From contig CASFQA010000007.1 in assembly GCA_949296775.1 (NCBI GenBank), forward strand, positions 1 through 53,675: a DNA stretch of 53,675 nucleotides, written 5' to 3'. Of this stretch, positions 35,488-41,102 are shown in pieces. How positions within the stretch are numbered: the stretch's first letter is position 1; each line of letters opens with the position of its first letter. The stretch comes from an uncultured bacterium (GTDB lineage Bacteria; Bacillota_I; Bacilli_A; RFN20; CAG-826). Below the pieces are notes generated by a model. That model saw only the letters and a list, made by a program, of their open reading frames with translations. It made no database searches and had not been told where the DNA came from. The position numbers and the translations under genes are program-made.

Positions 35488-36057
35488 GTGGCCACCCTAC
35501 TGATATTCGATTCCTTCGGCGTCTTAGCCGGGGAGATCGCGCCCCGCTTCTTCCGAAACCATTTCGAGGAAGAGGAGGCGATGAAGCTTAAAAACCGTTA
35601 CTTCCAGCCCGGCGATGCCGGAGTATATAGCTATGAGGAAATCCTTTCATTGATCGCCCAGGACTTTAAGATGGATCCAAGGCTCGTTGAAAGCGAATTC
35701 TGTTCTTACTACCGCCTTAACCTTCCATTGCTTGATTGGATCAGGGAACGGAAAGGAAAAGGGGATTACTTGTTCTGCCTGCTCAGCAATTGCTGCCGAG
35801 GCTTAATCGAGGAAGTCTATGCTTCGATCAAGCTGGAGGATTACTTCGATGAGATCATCTTCTCCTATCAAGAAAAAATGATTAAGCCCGATCCTGCTAT
35901 CTACCGTCTGGCTTTAAAACGTTGCCGAGAAAAAGGAGGAATCGAGGAAGCCTATATGATCGATGATCAGCGAAACAATATCGAGGGAGCAAAGCGCGCG
36001 GGGCTCGAAGCCATCTTATTCACCGGGAACGAATCCGTCATCGCCAAATTCCGTTAA
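35488..36057 (+). CDS. HAD-family hydrolase (subfamily IA, YihX-like)
   Basis: 189 residues starting at a GTG. Motif I is LLIFDSFGVLAG: the nucleophile aspartate D8 is present, but the second acidic residue of the usual DxD is replaced by Phe, as happens in haloacid dehalogenase and FDxGNV-type members. Motif II LLSNC, motif III EKMIKPDPAIY and motif IV MIDDQRNNIEGAKRAGLEAILF are intact. It probably removes phosphate from a small metabolite; the loss of the second Asp leaves dehalogenase-like or inactive roles open. A stand-alone gene convergent with the HTH gene at 36146. Confidence 0.82.
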   Translation: MATLLIFDSFGVLAGEIAPRFFRNHFEEEEAMKLKNRYFQPGDAGVYSYEEILSLIAQDFKMDPRLVESEFCSYYRLNLPLLDWIRERKGKGDYLFCLLSNCCRGLIEEVYASIKLEDYFDEIIFSYQEKMIKPDPAIYRLALKRCREKGGIEEAYMIDDQRNNIEGAKRAGLEAILFTGNESVIAKFR

Positions 36058-36145
36058 CCCGGTTCGGCTGGCACCATTTGGATTATCGCCATTCCCATCA
36101 ATAACAAGTTGGCGAAAAAACATCAACCATGGGCGCAGCGATCAA

Positions 36146-36532
36146 TCAATAAATCAATCGATCTTCGTACCCATAGGCGAGCAGGTATTCGTTTAGCTGC
36201 CTTAAATCGTAAATCCTGTTTTCGATGCAATAACGGATAATAAGCGAAAACGTCGAGGAAGACGATAAAGTGTAAGAGGCCTTTTTCAGCAGCAATTTGC
36301 ATTCATGGTTATTCAGCTGAAGGGCAAAGGCGATTTTTATAAGCACATTCAGGCTGGGTTTGGATTTGCCGGATATTATGCTTGAGTAAAGCTGCCGGCT
36401 GAGGTTGGCTTTTTGGTAAAGGGAGGGGGCATCGAGCCCGCTTCGGTCCATAAGGTAATACAAATAGGTGACCAGGTCGCAGGACCTCTCCTTATTTTGC
36501 CTATGGAATTCAATATATTGCTTTAAGTCCAC
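36146..36532 (-). CDS. HTH-containing putative regulator facing the MoxR-vWA operon
   Basis: 128 residues, GTG start at 36532. The middle (about 38-75; LYQKANLSRQLYSSIISGKS, then LNVLIKIAFALQLN) looks like a Cro-type helix-turn-helix. The C-terminal part (SSSTFSLIIRYCIENRIYDL, then NEYLLAYG) matches the tail of a widespread Firmicutes family often annotated as an RNA polymerase sigma-like or macro-domain-associated HTH protein. It is divergent from the five-gene operon and separated by 82 bases containing an inverted repeat, so it is its likely regulator. It does not look like a true sigma factor. Confidence 0.68.
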   Translation of the reverse strand: MDLKQYIEFHRQNKERSCDLVTYLYYLMDRSGLDAPSLYQKANLSRQLYSSIISGKSKPSLNVLIKIAFALQLNNHECKLLLKKASYTLSSSSTFSLIIRYCIENRIYDLRQLNEYLLAYGYEDRLIY

Positions 36533-36538
36533 GTCAGT

Positions 36539-36544
36539 ACTTTA
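36539..36544 (-). promoter_or_regulatory. -10-like TAAAGT of the HTH gene, leaderless type
   Basis: Minus-strand TAAAGT six bases before the GTG at 36532. Alternatively the TTGACA at 36556-36551 belongs to this promoter, but its -10 would then fall on the start codon. Confidence 0.3.
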
Positions 36545-36551
36545 TCACAAT

Positions 36552-36568
36552 GTCAAACGCGATTTGAC
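36552..36568. promoter_or_regulatory. Inverted repeat GTCAAA-CGCGA-TTTGAC between divergent genes
   Basis: Perfect six-base arms with a five-base centre. The arms contain TTGACC (plus strand, 36564-36569) and TTGACA (minus strand, 36556-36551), i.e. two divergent -35-like hexamers. A dimeric repressor bound here would block both directions; the HTH protein at 36146 is the obvious candidate. Confidence 0.45.
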
Positions 36569-36614
36569 CTCTTTGCCAAGACAATCCACTATCATTGGGG
36601 GCGGAGGAAGAAAC

Positions 36615-37238
36615 ATGAGTCAGCTACTTGAGGACATCCGAACCTATTGCCGCCAAATAAATGAAAAAATCGATATAGCAAGCGACGAGCAATCCTTAGC
36701 CAAAGGGATCGCGAGATACGCGCACCGGAACCAAAAAAGAGAGAATGGAGAGCCGTATTGGCTCCATCCTTATCGATGCGCGGAGACATTTAGATCATTG
36801 CTGCGGGGACAAGATCCAGCCGTTGCCGAAAGCTGCGGGATCCCGGTCAAGGGGGTAGAATGCCTTTGCCTCCTTCACGATGTGGCCGAGGATACCCCTA
36901 TTACCGCAAGCCAAATAAAAAGCCTATTCGCAGAAGCGGGATACCTCGATTATTTTCTCGCCTTTATCGAAACCCCATTGGATTTATTGACCCACCGAAA
37001 GGGCGAAAGATATCAAGAATACATCGATCGCTTAAAAGGCGACCCGCGGGCGAGTTTGGTCAAAATAATCGATATGCATAACAATCTCCTGGTTTTGACC
37101 TCGGGACGAAGGCTTGACTACTTTCAAAGCAAGATGAATGACTATTTGAGCTTTAGCTTCGCCCTATCCAAAGCCCAGGGATTCCATTTGGCCTTCGCCT
37201 CATTCAACGAAAAAGCGGAAAGGAGCCTACCTCGATGA
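36615..37238 (+). CDS. HD-domain hydrolase of SpoT/MESH1 type
   Basis: 207 residues from the ATG at 36615 (GGAGGAAG ribosome site; an upstream in-frame ATG at 36468 lies in the divergent gene and is rejected). Metal and substrate motifs: RYAHRNQKRENGEPYWLHP (H37, H51), CLLHDVAEDT (H88, D89, E92, D93), SLVKIIDMHNN (D153, N156). This pattern is that of (p)ppGpp hydrolases; no synthetase or TGS/ACT domain is present, so it is a single-domain hydrolase. The likely substrate is an alarmone or related nucleotide (inference). First gene of a five-gene coupled operon with a MoxR ATPase and a vWA protein. Confidence 0.8.
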   Translation: MSQLLEDIRTYCRQINEKIDIASDEQSLAKGIARYAHRNQKRENGEPYWLHPYRCAETFRSLLRGQDPAVAESCGIPVKGVECLCLLHDVAEDTPITASQIKSLFAEAGYLDYFLAFIETPLDLLTHRKGERYQEYIDRLKGDPRASLVKIIDMHNNLLVLTSGRRLDYFQSKMNDYLSFSFALSKAQGFHLAFASFNEKAERSLPR

Positions 37239-37438
37239 ATAAGGCTCCGCCTTTGGAAAAATCTATTGTCAAAACAGGCGTTGCCACCTATCATGGAAAA
37301 TGCGCCATAAAGAGTGTAAGTAGGGACAAGCCCATTGACTTACCAGCAACTTACCTGCCTAGCAGGCAAAGTGCTAAAGCTTGGATGATGGCCGAAAGCG
37401 TATTCATCCCTCTTTATGGCCTAAGGAGGGATTTTTAA
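37235..37438 (+). CDS. Possible small coupled ORF between the HD hydrolase and the MoxR ATPase
   Basis: 67 codons. It starts as ATGA over the HD stop with AAGGAG ten bases upstream, and ends in TAATG over the MoxR start. The exact fit at both ends is the main evidence; the composition is ordinary and no domain is seen (MNKAPPLEKSIVKTG... ends GLRRDF). The alternative is a 200-base leader for the MoxR gene, which has its own AAGGAGG. Confidence 0.45.
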   Translation: MNKAPPLEKSIVKTGVATYHGKCAIKSVSRDKPIDLPATYLPSRQSAKAWMMAESVFIPLYGLRRDF

Positions 37439-38892
37439 TGGAATCAAACAACTTTTTATCGAGGCTCGGAATATATGGCTGGGATGATTTGGCCATTGTC
37501 GTCCTGGCCGCCTTATCCTTTGAAGAAACGATCTTGCTGAAAGGGGAAACCGGCACGGCTAAATCGTTAGTATTCGACAAAATAATGGATAAGCTGTGGA
37601 TAAAAAAGCGAAAATACAACGCCTCGATGGTCAATTTAGACGACCTGATCGGAATACCGATGCCGAATTGGCGACGAACGAAAATCAACTATATCCAAGG
37701 AAACGCGTCGGTTTGGGACGCCGGGGCCATATTCATCGACGAGATAAACCGCTGCAAGCCGGAATTGCAAAACAAGCTTTTCCCGCTTATCTACGACAAG
37801 GAAATCCAAGGGGTCAAATTAAGGTCTTTGAGGTTTCGCTGGGCCGCGATGAATGAGGTCGAAGAAGGCGATGGCGATTATCTAGGGGCCGAGCCCCTCG
37901 ATAAAGCCCTTGAGGACCGATTCGTCTATGCGATAAAGGTTCCGACCTATAGAGAGCTTTCGCTTGAGGATAGGCAATATGCGGTCAGCAAATCCTTGGA
38001 AGGAGTCGAATGGCAAAATCGAAATTGGGGCTCATATGCCGTTGAGCGCAAGAAAAAGAAATACTCGTTTCATAGTTGTTTCGACTACCACGTCGAGACC
38101 ATTGCTAGATGCAAGCTAAAATTCCAATCCATTTGCGAAAAACTAAAGCCATTTGCCACCTCTTACGCTATGACGTTGGCGAGTTTCCTGCTCGAAGCCG
38201 ACATCGAAATAAGCACCCGACGGGTCAATTACCTAGCGAAAACGATTTTAGAACTCTACGCTGCCGCAATGGCGATGGACGAAGATGGGGAGGAGACCAC
38301 GTTTGAGACGGCGGCTAGGCTACAAGCTTACCATTGTTTTCCAGGGCTGCCGGGAGACATCAAACTAAGAGAAAAAATCGCCTCATTCGCGGTCGAGGCC
38401 GTGAAAAGCGTCCTCGCCAGGCAAGATAAGCAGATTCGTCGGTTTCTTTCCATAACCGACCCGGCGGAAAAGATAATCTACGCCATCGCAAAACGCGACA
38501 ACCTAACGAGAACCGATATTTACCAAACGATCTTGCAAAACCTGAGTTTCGTCAATCGATATCAAAGGCGGGTCCTCTCCTACCTTGCTTATCGCGCCCT
38601 AAGAACTCGGCCAAATGCCACCTTAAATTTCTTTGAAGCCCTGAGGCCAGACCTCCAATTCTGCCTGCCGATCCAAAGCAAAATCTGCGGCGGGGGCTGC
38701 ATTCCGCTGGGATATCGGGAAAGCCGGGAAATACTCAAATCGCTCAATCCGAAAACCGATTTTTCCAAAGCGGCCAACGATCTAATTAACTCCTTCTTTT
38801 TCGATGGAAAAGGGTTCGCCGTAGCCAACGACGTTTACTACGTCTTCGACTTGTTGAAAAAGTACTACCCCCAGGTTATAGGAGGCAATTGA
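37438..38892 (+). CDS. MoxR-like AAA+ ATPase
   Basis: 484 residues from the ATG at 37438 (AAGGAGG seven bases upstream). Walker A GETGTAKS (36-43), Walker B IFIDEINR (98-105), sensor 1 in RWAAMNE (135-140), and LDKALEDRF with the arginine finger R161. This is the MoxR clade, which acts as chaperone or remodelling engine together with vWA proteins. Residues from about 190 on are helical and unrecognised, and replace the usual lid with a long C-terminal region. The fourth gene downstream encodes the expected vWA partner. Confidence 0.88.
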   Translation: MESNNFLSRLGIYGWDDLAIVVLAALSFEETILLKGETGTAKSLVFDKIMDKLWIKKRKYNASMVNLDDLIGIPMPNWRRTKINYIQGNASVWDAGAIFIDEINRCKPELQNKLFPLIYDKEIQGVKLRSLRFRWAAMNEVEEGDGDYLGAEPLDKALEDRFVYAIKVPTYRELSLEDRQYAVSKSLEGVEWQNRNWGSYAVERKKKKYSFHSCFDYHVETIARCKLKFQSICEKLKPFATSYAMTLASFLLEADIEISTRRVNYLAKTILELYAAAMAMDEDGEETTFETAARLQAYHCFPGLPGDIKLREKIASFAVEAVKSVLARQDKQIRRFLSITDPAEKIIYAIAKRDNLTRTDIYQTILQNLSFVNRYQRRVLSYLAYRALRTRPNATLNFFEALRPDLQFCLPIQSKICGGGCIPLGYRESREILKSLNPKTDFSKAANDLINSFFFDGKGFAVANDVYYVFDLLKKYYPQVIGGN

Positions 38893-38894
38893 AT

Positions 38895-39299
38895 ATGTGG
38901 CAGAATTGGATGACCGATAAAATGGATGATCTCGCTTACATCGATATAGGCGAGATCTCTGACTGCCTAGTCGTCGATCCGCGGGAATTGGCGAGACAGC
39001 TGAACACGGATCTTTCCGGATTGGCGGATGCCGGAAGGGAAGCCTATGATTCGATTTGGAGAAGCGAAAGCGCCCCAAGGGGATATTGCTTCGTTCGAAA
39101 GACCCTCGGTTTTTCTGACTTTGACGCTTTGCTCATCGAGAAGAATAAGCCGAAAATGAAAATGGCCGACCTCTATACCGGCTTATTCCTTCTAGGAAAG
39201 CTGATGGGCGATATCTACAGCCCGAAACGGGTTTTCTCAATTGAGAACTCCGCTGTTCGAAGCGTGTATTTCTTCGATGCCAAAGAGGTTTCGAAATGA
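38895..39299 (+). CDS. Conserved-looking small protein of the MoxR-vWA operon
   Basis: 134 residues. The ATG at 38895 is nine bases after GGAGG; an in-frame TTG at 38889 is too close to it. It begins MWQNWMTDKMDDLAYIDIGE and is a soluble mixed alpha/beta protein of unrecognised fold. It lies three bases after the ATPase stop and overlaps the next start (ATGA), so its product is probably a partner or adaptor of the ATPase-metallopeptidase pair. Confidence 0.7.
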   Translation: MWQNWMTDKMDDLAYIDIGEISDCLVVDPRELARQLNTDLSGLADAGREAYDSIWRSESAPRGYCFVRKTLGFSDFDALLIEKNKPKMKMADLYTGLFLLGKLMGDIYSPKRVFSIENSAVRSVYFFDAKEVSK

Positions 39300-40666
39300 C
39301 CGAGGAAGAAGTCATAAGGGCGATTTACGGCCTCGATTACCCACCCGAAGTCCGTTCGGTCATCCACAGCTTAGAGGATATTGTCTTTACTTCGGAATGC
39401 CAAAGCTCAGCTTTGCTAATCAAAAAGCACCCGATCCTTTACTTGAACATGGAAGATATCGAAACCCATTGCAAAAGCAAAGAACATCTTTTCATGTTAG
39501 TGATGCACGAAGCGTACCACCTGCTTCTTGGGCATAAGCTGATGACGAAAGGCGTCTTGACGAAAATCGACAACATCTGCTTTGACGCGATGATAAACGC
39601 AAGGCTTTGTCGGGAATACCCGAAAAGAAAATACCGGTCGTTCTTCACCGGCCTTTATGAAGACTACCGCTTCCCGGAATTGCTGCTGCGACCAGTCGGC
39701 AAACGAACGCCGAAAAGATTTCGCGACATATTGCATCGTTTGTATTCGACCGACCAAATCAGTTACACGGAATTGCGCAAAATCGTCGAAGATGAGCTTA
39801 ATAAGACGGACACCCCCAACAAAATTCATCGGGAAAAAGGCCAAGGAAAAGCGGAAAATCCCCCATCGAAGCAAGGGCCGGAAACCCCGATGGAAAAGAC
39901 GGGAGAAACAAACAAAGAAGAAAAAGGAAAAAGCGAAGAGGCAAAGGACCACGATGCGTCTCGATCGAAACATAACGATGCGAAGCCTGGCTATAGCCTA
40001 ACCGGTCACGATGACCAACTTTATCGTTTGGATGACAAAGAGCCGTTAAATATTAGCGAAGAAGCGTTTATCGAGATGTTCATCAAAAATTTCGCGGCAA
40101 TTTCAAAACCAAAGGAACCGAAATGGAAATCCGGCTCGATCCAAACATATTCCTATTCCCCCGAGGATCGACGGGCCGCCGCCAAGCTCGCGCTTAGCAA
40201 AAGAAGCTTGCCGCTTTTCAACAAGGAAATCAGCTTCTATCGAAAAACCAAGCAAAGAGAGAAACGGACATTGGTTTATCTCGATGTTTCGGGAAGTAAC
40301 GTTGATTACCTGAAACTGATATTTCCCACGCTTAATCGATTGTTTCAGGGTGGGGTTATTGCCCTTTATGCATTCTCGACGAAGATTAGGCGAATTACGA
40401 GCTACGAAGCAAAAACCGGTCAATTCCCGGTTGGCGGCGGGACGGATATAAACAAGGTTTTCAACCATTTTCATAACAATCCCCGTTTGCACAAGCTAAA
40501 AAAGCTCGTGATAGTATCCGATGGTTGTTTCGGGGAAATAAGCGAGGAAAACAAAACGCGGAATATCGAATCCAAGCTTCAAATCGGAATAATCCTTACC
40601 TCGTCGAAGGAAGAACCTCCGACCTTGGGAGTGCCTTATAAATCGAAAATGTATTTGGAGTTTTAG
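39296..40666 (+). CDS. DUF2201-type zinc metallopeptidase-vWA protein
   Basis: 456 residues. The N-terminal domain has HEAYHLLLGH (71-80; HExxH with a further His) and DNICFDAMINARL, as in the putative metallopeptidase domain of DUF2201/VWA-like proteins. Residues about 175-235 are a charged, low-complexity linker. The C-terminal vWA domain has the MIDAS LDVSGS (329-334), GGGTDI and IVSDG. This architecture is the standard partner of MoxR ATPases. The likely action is ATP-dependent remodelling or proteolysis of an unknown target. Last gene of the operon. Confidence 0.85.
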   Translation: MTEEEVIRAIYGLDYPPEVRSVIHSLEDIVFTSECQSSALLIKKHPILYLNMEDIETHCKSKEHLFMLVMHEAYHLLLGHKLMTKGVLTKIDNICFDAMINARLCREYPKRKYRSFFTGLYEDYRFPELLLRPVGKRTPKRFRDILHRLYSTDQISYTELRKIVEDELNKTDTPNKIHREKGQGKAENPPSKQGPETPMEKTGETNKEEKGKSEEAKDHDASRSKHNDAKPGYSLTGHDDQLYRLDDKEPLNISEEAFIEMFIKNFAAISKPKEPKWKSGSIQTYSYSPEDRRAAAKLALSKRSLPLFNKEISFYRKTKQREKRTLVYLDVSGSNVDYLKLIFPTLNRLFQGGVIALYAFSTKIRRITSYEAKTGQFPVGGGTDINKVFNHFHNNPRLHKLKKLVIVSDGCFGEISEENKTRNIESKLQIGIILTSSKEEPPTLGVPYKSKMYLEF

Positions 40667-41028
40667 CCTCTGAGATCCAAGTCGACGAAAAGGTTGCCCA
40701 CAACATAAATGGCGTTCTCGGATATAGACAAACCCTCATCTTCTCGCCTAATAGGATGGCAATGGTTGAGACAAAATACGGTTCTACGGGCTCTGATGGG
40801 GTCTGTGTGGTCCCGGACCACAGCCGATCCCGTAGCTTTCGGCCTTGATTGATAAAAGAAAACGGTTTTTCCTGCAATTGGAATCGGTTAAACATACCAA
40901 GGAGGAAAAACCAGATGGATTTTACCATTTTAGCAGGCTCGGCCAAGCGTCTGGCCGGGACGCCGAGCAGGACGGGGAGCCGGCAATACGAAAAAATCCG
41001 ATGCTCGCGCACCGGATGGAATTTCGTT
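40667..41028. other. Gene-poor stretch between the MoxR-vWA operon and tRNA-Trp
   Basis: No convincing gene. It holds a compact palindrome TGTGGTCC-C-GGACCACA (40806-40822), a 10-base inverted repeat GGTTTTTCCT/AGGAAAAACC (40864-40873 and 40903-40912), and a 48-codon ORF from 40915 preceded by AAGGAGG whose end overlaps the tRNA on the other strand. The ORF peptide resembles nothing and is probably not real. Confidence 0.5.
40864..40912 (+). repeat. Long hairpin with 10-base perfect stem
   Basis: Arms GGTTTTTCCT (40864-40873) and AGGAAAAACC (40903-40912), loop 29 bases. The right arm overlaps an AAGGAGG that could serve the small ORF at 40915. It could be an RNA structure or a remnant of a mobile-element end. 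Confidence 0.4.
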
Positions 41029-41102
41029 TGGCAGGGGCTGAAGGAATCGAACCCTCATTAAAGGTTTTGGAGACCTCTGTTCTACCATTGAACCAAGCCC
41101 CT
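41029..41102 (-). tRNA. trnW: tRNA-Trp (anticodon CCA)
   Basis: 74 bases with the 3' CCA encoded. Acceptor AGGGGCT pairs with AGCCCCT, discriminator G. D arm GGTTCAATGGTAGAAC; anticodon stem GAGGT/ACCTT with loop CTCCAAA (anticodon CCA); T arm AGGGTTCGATTCCTT-type. Only the CCA anticodon is needed because TGA is used as stop in this genome. Confidence 0.95.

Follow-up and report, generated by a model that had tools for sequence, protein, structure and literature searches.

The 53,675-nucleotide (nt) contig CASFQA010000007.1 (assembly GCA_949296775.1, CAG-826), which is called the window here and whose positions serve as coordinates throughout, carries beside a tRNA-Trp gene a variable segment in which an S-adenosylmethionine-I (SAM-I, or S-box) riboswitch precedes genes for a MoxR-type AAA+ ATPase, a small protein termed mid, and a protein that joins an HExxH-metallopeptidase domain to a vWA domain. 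The identification of the riboswitch is well supported. The best explanation of the arrangement, which we consider somewhat more probable than its negation, is that the three genes belong to an accessory module that is induced by depletion of SAM and that probably serves in conflict with phages. Induction by SAM depletion is what we infer from the sequence of the switch; more weakly, the context of the genes suggests that phages which interfere with SAM set the module off and that its role is anti-phage. An earlier reading of this DNA, referred to below as the original prediction, had instead proposed a five-gene operon which tied an alarmone-type HD hydrolase and a small open reading frame (ORF) of 67 amino acids to the MoxR-vWA pair. 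The divergent helix-turn-helix (HTH) gene and the HD, MoxR, 134-amino acid and metallopeptidase-vWA genes are confirmed as real (Table 1), while the proposed operon is not upheld, because the small ORF is the riboswitch and the HD gene belongs to a separate module.

A SAM-I riboswitch in front of moxR

When the gap between the HD and MoxR genes is aligned with its counterparts in two relatives, about 90 nt prove to be conserved far above the level of the flanking proteins, and this stretch gives a full-length match to the Rfam family RF00162 (41.6 bits, E 3.7e-7; 43.4 bits in a search of the whole genome). Matches of 45.6-59.8 bits, which exceed the curated Rfam cut-off of 44.4 bits for this family, lie directly 5' of MoxR in G571, G028, G044, G099 and G332, so that the S-box upstream of MoxR is kept both in relatives among the Bacilli and in a spirochaete (G571); in G000, G028, G099 and G332 the match before MoxR is the sole RF00162 match of the genome. 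In an alignment of seven aptamer sequences, compensatory changes are present in 14 of the 28 base pairs and 92% of the cells are paired, compared with at most 47% in control alignments that had been slid out of register. The conserved P1-P3 helices of RF00162, with covariation, and its pseudoknot are thus present. The 67-amino acid ORF (37235-37438), which the original prediction had counted as a gene, was rejected as a protein: its DNA is that of the riboswitch and terminator and is better conserved than the flanking proteins, and its frame is broken in G028 and contains a stop codon in the closest relative.

The aptamer lies between a promoter and a terminator. The promoter matches the consensus at 10 of 12 positions (one such site was found, against 0.5 expected in shuffled sequences), and its -35 element is kept in locus L007. 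The Shine-Dalgarno (SD) sequence of MoxR, AAGGAGG, lies within the 3' arm of the terminator, and the 5' arm and loop of the terminator (CTCTTTATGGC) are complementary to the 5' strand of P1, GCCATAAAGAG (37304-37314), the complementarity with this strand and the joining region J1/2 being perfect over 11 nt. The complement of the P1 5' strand is therefore a predicted antiterminator, which would couple the expression platform to P1, and all the parts of a riboswitch of this type (aptamer, pseudoknot, terminator and complementary antiterminator) are shown by the sequence. The platform in G571 differs in that GGAGG follows the 3' side of P1 without a gap and lies eight nt upstream of the ATG, and it would give the same predicted logic as the switch in the window.

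Because 199 nt containing the promoter, aptamer and terminator separate them, HD and MoxR are not translationally coupled. The tight coupling that had been proposed for the whole row of genes holds for MoxR, mid and vWA, in which MoxR and mid are separated by a 2-base gap and mid and vWA overlap at ATGA, and fails for HD and MoxR.

Table 1. Features of the variable segment and its border in the window
Feature	Position	Strand	Evidence and remarks
Variable cargo segment, HAD-hydrolase gene to tRNA-Trp 3' end	36058-41028	.	Synteny with genus relatives
Cro/C1-type HTH regulator	36532-36146	-	GTG start, divergent to HD; Pfam HTH_3 1.4e-5
Probable HTH operator, inverted repeat GTCAAA-N5-TTTGAC	36552-36568	.	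Present in L007, L127, L129
Small SpoT/MESH1-type HD hydrolase, 207 aa	36615-37238	+	NCBIfam spoT_relA 8.8e-11
Sigma-70-like promoter TTGTCA-17-TATCAT	37266-37294	+	Just 5' of riboswitch
SAM-I (S-box) riboswitch aptamer	37302-37394	+	RF00162 41.6 bits, E 3.7e-7
Intrinsic terminator, SD AAGGAGG in 3' arm	37406-37432	+	Sequence analysis
MoxR-type AAA+ ATPase, 484 aa	37438-38892	+	ATG start; Pfam AAA_5 1.4e-8; family alignment
Mid protein, 134 aa	38895-39299	+	ATG start; homologues in most related loci (alignment)
HExxH-metallopeptidase/vWA protein	39296-40666	+	Pfam VWA_CoxE 8.6e-7; invariant HE/H/GH and MIDAS residues
tRNA-Trp (CCA), hotspot anchor	41029-41102	-	

The MoxR, mid and metallopeptidase-vWA proteins

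The unit controlled by the riboswitch encodes MoxR, the mid protein of about 134 amino acids and the HExxH-metallopeptidase/vWA protein. The conserved motifs GETGTAKS and FIDEIN (Walker A and B of the AAA+ ATPase) and DVSGS..T..D, an intact metal ion-dependent adhesion site (MIDAS), indicate a MoxR-vWA pair in which a predicted ATPase stands beside a vWA partner. The N-terminal domain of the latter is a putative zincin-type metallopeptidase, with HExxH and a third ligand region, and HExxH..GH is invariant in eight sequences. The C-terminal vWA domain has the MIDAS motif DxSGS and is matched by Foldseek to the MIDAS domain of MDN1 and the vWA domain of NorD; the structural model of this protein is weak, with a confidence score (pLDDT) of 55, and the match covers the vWA part alone. 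The model of mid is likewise of low confidence (pLDDT 58), and mid has no Pfam match and falls in no known family. When viral contigs, plasmids and phages were searched with MoxR and vWA, only distant MoxR matches came up.

Of 30 relatives from the genus, one carries MoxR-mid-vWA. Few genomes at the level of the class or the phylum have the unit, and it is also found in a spirochaete and in planctomycetes. In G044, G199 and G259, and in the planctomycetes G572, G644, G610 and G715, a divergent SAM-synthetase paralogue, called MetK2 here, lies directly 3' of vWA. Among 246 planctomycetes MetK2 occurs in four, which are exactly the four with this MoxR; these four sequences were part of the query alignment, so the survey tests whether further MetK2 occurs without MoxR, and none was found. 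Among 247 spirochaetes MetK2 stands out in one alone, G571 (1e-166, where canonical MetK gives about 1e-55), and that genome also bears this MoxR. Neither survey, then, has a MetK2 in a genome that lacks this MoxR. The vWA and MetK2 genes of G571 lie at facing contig ends, from which their adjacency is deduced. In another spirochaete, G1110 (L078 6001-7647), a single ORF fuses an N-terminal part of MoxR to a C-terminal part of MetK2; it is probably the remnant of a deletion within the operon.

MetK2 has all three MAT domains (PF00438, PF02772 and PF02773) and keeps most of the residues aligned with the ATP/phosphate site. In the alignment of all seven MetK2 sequences, the column of E. coli E55 holds Arg and the segment containing Q98 is absent. 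We take E55 and Q98, in the numbering of E. coli MetK, to be residues that contact methionine, and by its methionine-binding residues MetK2 would not qualify as a true SAM synthetase.

S-boxes before other accessory genes in the genus

By textbook account, SAM-I riboswitches control methionine metabolism. S-boxes are present in 14 of 31 genomes of the genus, and most of them form one subfamily, with 80% mean identity, the shared sequence CCAUAAAGAG, the pairing GACAAGC:GCUUG and an invariant CAAG:CUUG pseudoknot. The members that resemble the S-box of the window sit before accessory genes, not before metK or methionine genes. The S-box is followed by an FtsH-like AAA-M41 peptidase and then Macro in G023; by N-formylglutamate amidohydrolase, ADP-ribosylglycohydrolase and Macro in G012; and by an unknown protein of 282 amino acids, ADP-ribosylglycohydrolase and Macro in G005. 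Other S-boxes of the genus precede small unknown proteins, in one case followed by a relative of the HTH protein of the window. Most of the genus S-boxes have a terminator and, downstream, an 8-12-nt complement of the P1 5' strand near the SD sequence, whereas three S-boxes of methionine genes used for comparison lack this arrangement.

The loci of this subfamily include L130, L156, L157, L159, L162, L163 and L165, and its cargo also includes an unknown protein of 122 amino acids. In L156 (6087-8367) the order S-box, FtsH-like AAA and M41 metallopeptidase, Macro is a thematic parallel of MoxR and its metallopeptidase partner. Genes for ADP-ribosylglycohydrolase or Macro recur near S-box, MetK2 or HD genes (L023/L024, L007 17252-18157, L130, L162 and L008 13569-14123).

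The HTH-HD module

The HD protein keeps the motifs HDVAEDT and KIIDMHN and is without a synthetase domain. Its match to spoT_relA is local (NCBIfam 8.8e-11), and its best relatives in the PDB are RelA/SpoT hydrolase domains, with a (p)ppApp hydrolase and MESH1-type HD proteins also found; from these motif residues and this similarity to hydrolase domains it is predicted to be a RelA/SpoT-type HD hydrolase. The HTH protein has homologues in G028, G009, G014 and G012. The divergent arrangement of the HTH gene over an inverted repeat was described correctly by the original prediction: the repeat is found and is kept in the relatives L007, L127 and L129. Because it is kept while its spacer differs between the window and L007, the repeat is a candidate operator, probably that of the HTH regulator.

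Conserved co-occurrence of the HD and MoxR-vWA genes, which had been set as a test of the operon, is largely absent. The two are adjacent only in the genome of the window and in G028. G009 and G014 have HTH-HD but no MoxR, G022 has HD by itself, and most relatives with MoxR-mid-vWA lack HD. The candidate in which HD and MoxR form one conserved operon was rejected, since each occurs without the other, and on the evidence of gene order HTH-HD is a module separate from the MoxR unit. A looser link between HD and S-boxes remains because HD adjoins an S-box in G012 and G014, and HD and the S-box cargo may be parts of a common theme.

The HD loci L129 (G014), L127 (G009) and L128 (G022) are accessory neighbourhoods without MoxR, in which HD is accompanied by pairs of an AAA gene and a second gene (G014 and G022), a transposase (G014) and a methyltransferase-like gene (G009). 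A match of the window HTH protein (4.3e-8) covers 504-623, the C-terminal end of the 626-amino acid phage family phrog_4031.

The tRNA-Trp hotspot

In all the genus relatives examined, DNA synteny stops at 41026-41029, the 3' end of the tRNA-Trp gene, which confirms the island border proposed in the original prediction. The AT-richness that had been judged by eye is also confirmed (GC 0.469, against 0.540 +/- 0.016 for stretches of equal length elsewhere in the window), as is the distance to the tRNA gene, which begins 362 bases from the end of the block. In G028 the space between tRNA-Trp and the same HAD gene (which ends at 36057 in the window) is taken up by an insert of 4.07 kb that includes transposase-like genes, and the MoxR unit of that genome is located elsewhere; G009 and G005 have restriction-modification genes at this site. 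The tRNA-Trp 3' end as an integration hotspot in the genus, with the MoxR block as accessory cargo, is well supported; the left border of the segment shows no att-like direct repeat of the 3' end of the tRNA gene. At loci L109, L110 and L115, set beside window 36058-41028, the tRNA-Trp 3' end bears restriction-modification genes or insertion sequence elements instead of the MoxR block.

The MoxR loci elsewhere adjoin DndE and a fragment of DndD (G099), an HEC-01A-like ATPase gene (G644), a type II methyltransferase and an ADP-ribosylglycohydrolase (G199 and G259) and a resolvase (G332), and a serine recombinase is among the neighbours of the unit. The proposal that this is an accessory island with a likely unreported MoxR-vWA system is supported by the position at the hotspot, the scattered occurrence and the neighbouring defence genes; its five-gene coupling has to be given up. 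In a planctomycete (L066 7536-9163), an HEC-01A-like AAA ATPase gene lies immediately after MetK2.

Proposed induction by SAM depletion and rival explanations

In the explanation that we favour, the block would consist of two cargo modules, one comprising HTH and HD, in which the HTH regulator probably acts on the inverted repeat between the two genes, and the other a transcription unit running from promoter, riboswitch and terminator through moxR, mid and vWA. With SAM plentiful, P1 would form, the terminator would form and transcription would stop before moxR; when SAM falls, the P1 5' strand would pair with the terminator 5' arm, giving read-through and freeing the SD sequence. The MoxR ring and its vWA/peptidase partner would then be made and would unfold, remodel or cleave a target. 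Phage SAM lyases and MetK inhibitors are the likely triggers of a drop in SAM, and the module would therefore act in phage conflict. The T3 SAMase degrades SAM and inhibits host MetK (PMC8406200), and because it strikes both, the combination of a low-SAM sensor, a MetK variant, an ATPase/peptidase and ADP-ribose erasers is biologically sensible; MetK2 and the erasers (Macro and ADP-ribosylglycohydrolase) of the sister loci would be expected if the programme undoes a take-over of SAM and ADP-ribose.

A number of observations weigh against this explanation. The aptamer of the window scores slightly under the curated cut-off (41.6 or 43.4 against 44.4 bits), no S-box is detectable at the planctomycete loci or in G199 and G259, and the genome to which the window belongs lacks MetK2, so that there the riboswitch is the sole link to SAM. 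PADLOC-DB 2.0 has no component model for the proteins of the cassette, which gave just weak AAA and HTH matches, and genes in a defence-type context can also be accessory or stress genes of a general kind.

Foremost among the rivals is a role in SAM homeostasis with no part in conflict: under limitation of methionine or SAM, MoxR-vWA would mature or recycle a SAM- or metal-dependent enzyme and MetK2 would add SAM synthesis. We regard this as possible but doubtful. The normal targets of S-boxes are SAM and methionine genes, canonical metK is preceded by another S-box in G044 and G017, and MetK2 retains most residues aligned with the ATP/phosphate site, all of which speaks for this rival, but the units are without methionine genes and the related cargo consists of Macro, ADP-ribosylglycohydrolase and FtsH-like peptidase. 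NorQ/NorD and RavA/ViaA could serve as models, known MoxR-vWA pairs acting on metalloenzymes (PMC9976466, PMC13036017); the patchy distribution, the hotspot location and the defence-gene neighbours are less easily accommodated, and ordinary use of methionine by MetK2 is doubtful because of the Arg in the E55 column and the missing Q98 segment.

An S-box derivative whose ligand has changed (to a SAM analogue made by MetK2, or to an adenosyl or ADP-ribosyl compound), or which functions chiefly as a shared end for the exchange of cassettes, might account for the presence of one subfamily, 80% alike, before unrelated cargos, for its invariant pseudoknot and for the loss of the aligned methionine-contact residues in MetK2. 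This is improbable: the core SAM-I positions are kept, the full-length matches of the relatives exceed the cut-off, the window genome has no MetK2, and the terminators, SD-sequestering hairpins and antiterminator complements that persist would be needless in a mere recombination end. Least credible, to the point of being nearly dismissed, is a single alarmone-coupled operon whose five members (HD, the 67-amino acid ORF, MoxR, the 134-amino acid protein and vWA) act together; the shared strand, the gaps that are small on paper and the adjacency of HD and MoxR in two genomes speak for it, against which stand the separate occurrence of the two modules and a small ORF that proves to be a riboswitch, flanked by a promoter and a terminator of its own, and is disrupted in G028.

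The explanation by SAM depletion can be extended, tentatively and with less than even confidence, to a new class of conflict system in which the riboswitch would be an infection sensor and a drop in SAM would release exchangeable mobile cargo, so that the take-over is reversed or the cell is killed. This cargo would include MoxR-vWA peptidase machines, the FtsH-like peptidase, MetK2, the Macro and ADP-ribosylglycohydrolase erasers and the HD hydrolase. If confirmed, a metabolite-sensing RNA would trigger a bacterial conflict programme, which would account for the way in which cells could sense phages that evade restriction by destroying SAM. MetK2 is an undescribed paralogue of SAM synthetase that in three phyla is linked to a MoxR-vWA-peptidase machine, and through this link its substrate and the machine's client can be tested directly.

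Comparison with known systems

The pair of MoxR with metallopeptidase-vWA and the vWA-MoxR conflict systems are already known, while control by a SAM riboswitch, MetK2 and the placing of S-boxes before such cargo were not found described in the open-access literature searched. No SAM riboswitch was found there with MoxR, with Macro or ADP-ribosylglycohydrolase genes or with anti-phage loci; should the conflict reading prove right, the system would be categorically new. The passages retrieved from the description of the vWA-MoxR ternary conflict systems (PMC7159879) name neither a riboswitch nor a SAM synthetase. As portrayed there, those systems share with the window unit a MoxR ring, a vWA partner, a third protein and an accessory distribution, but no VMAP, iSTAND or beta-propeller partner is recognised in the window. 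Membership in the VMAP/iSTAND/bpMoxR ternary systems was rejected (mid has no Pfam match, and bpMoxR gives 16.3 bits against a cut-off of 27), as was, on component models, membership in any PADLOC anti-phage system.

The S-box of the window resembles other members of RF00162 in its full-length aptamer, kink-turn region, pseudoknot and terminator-type off switch, and differs in preceding an accessory MoxR-metallopeptidase-vWA unit where the usual targets are methionine genes, in having an antiterminator that uses the P1 5' strand, and in also masking the SD sequence. The NorQ/NorD and RavA/ViaA chaperones follow the same ATPase-vWA logic, and Foldseek groups the window vWA with NorD, but they lack a peptidase domain and have housekeeping clients. 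MetK2 shares the three MAT domains with MetK, from which it differs in forming a separate group, in its changed methionine-contact residues as aligned and in its constant association with this MoxR in two surveys. In group 2.2 jumbo phages, the neighbour of MoxR is a vWA protein whose N-terminal part is a metallopeptidase, and a role in virion assembly has been proposed for the pair (PMC7824862); the window unit has the same pair (phrog_1297, 3.8e-10; phrog_1314, 3.8e-17), but it is chromosomal, is controlled by a riboswitch, includes mid and has MetK2 in its sister loci.

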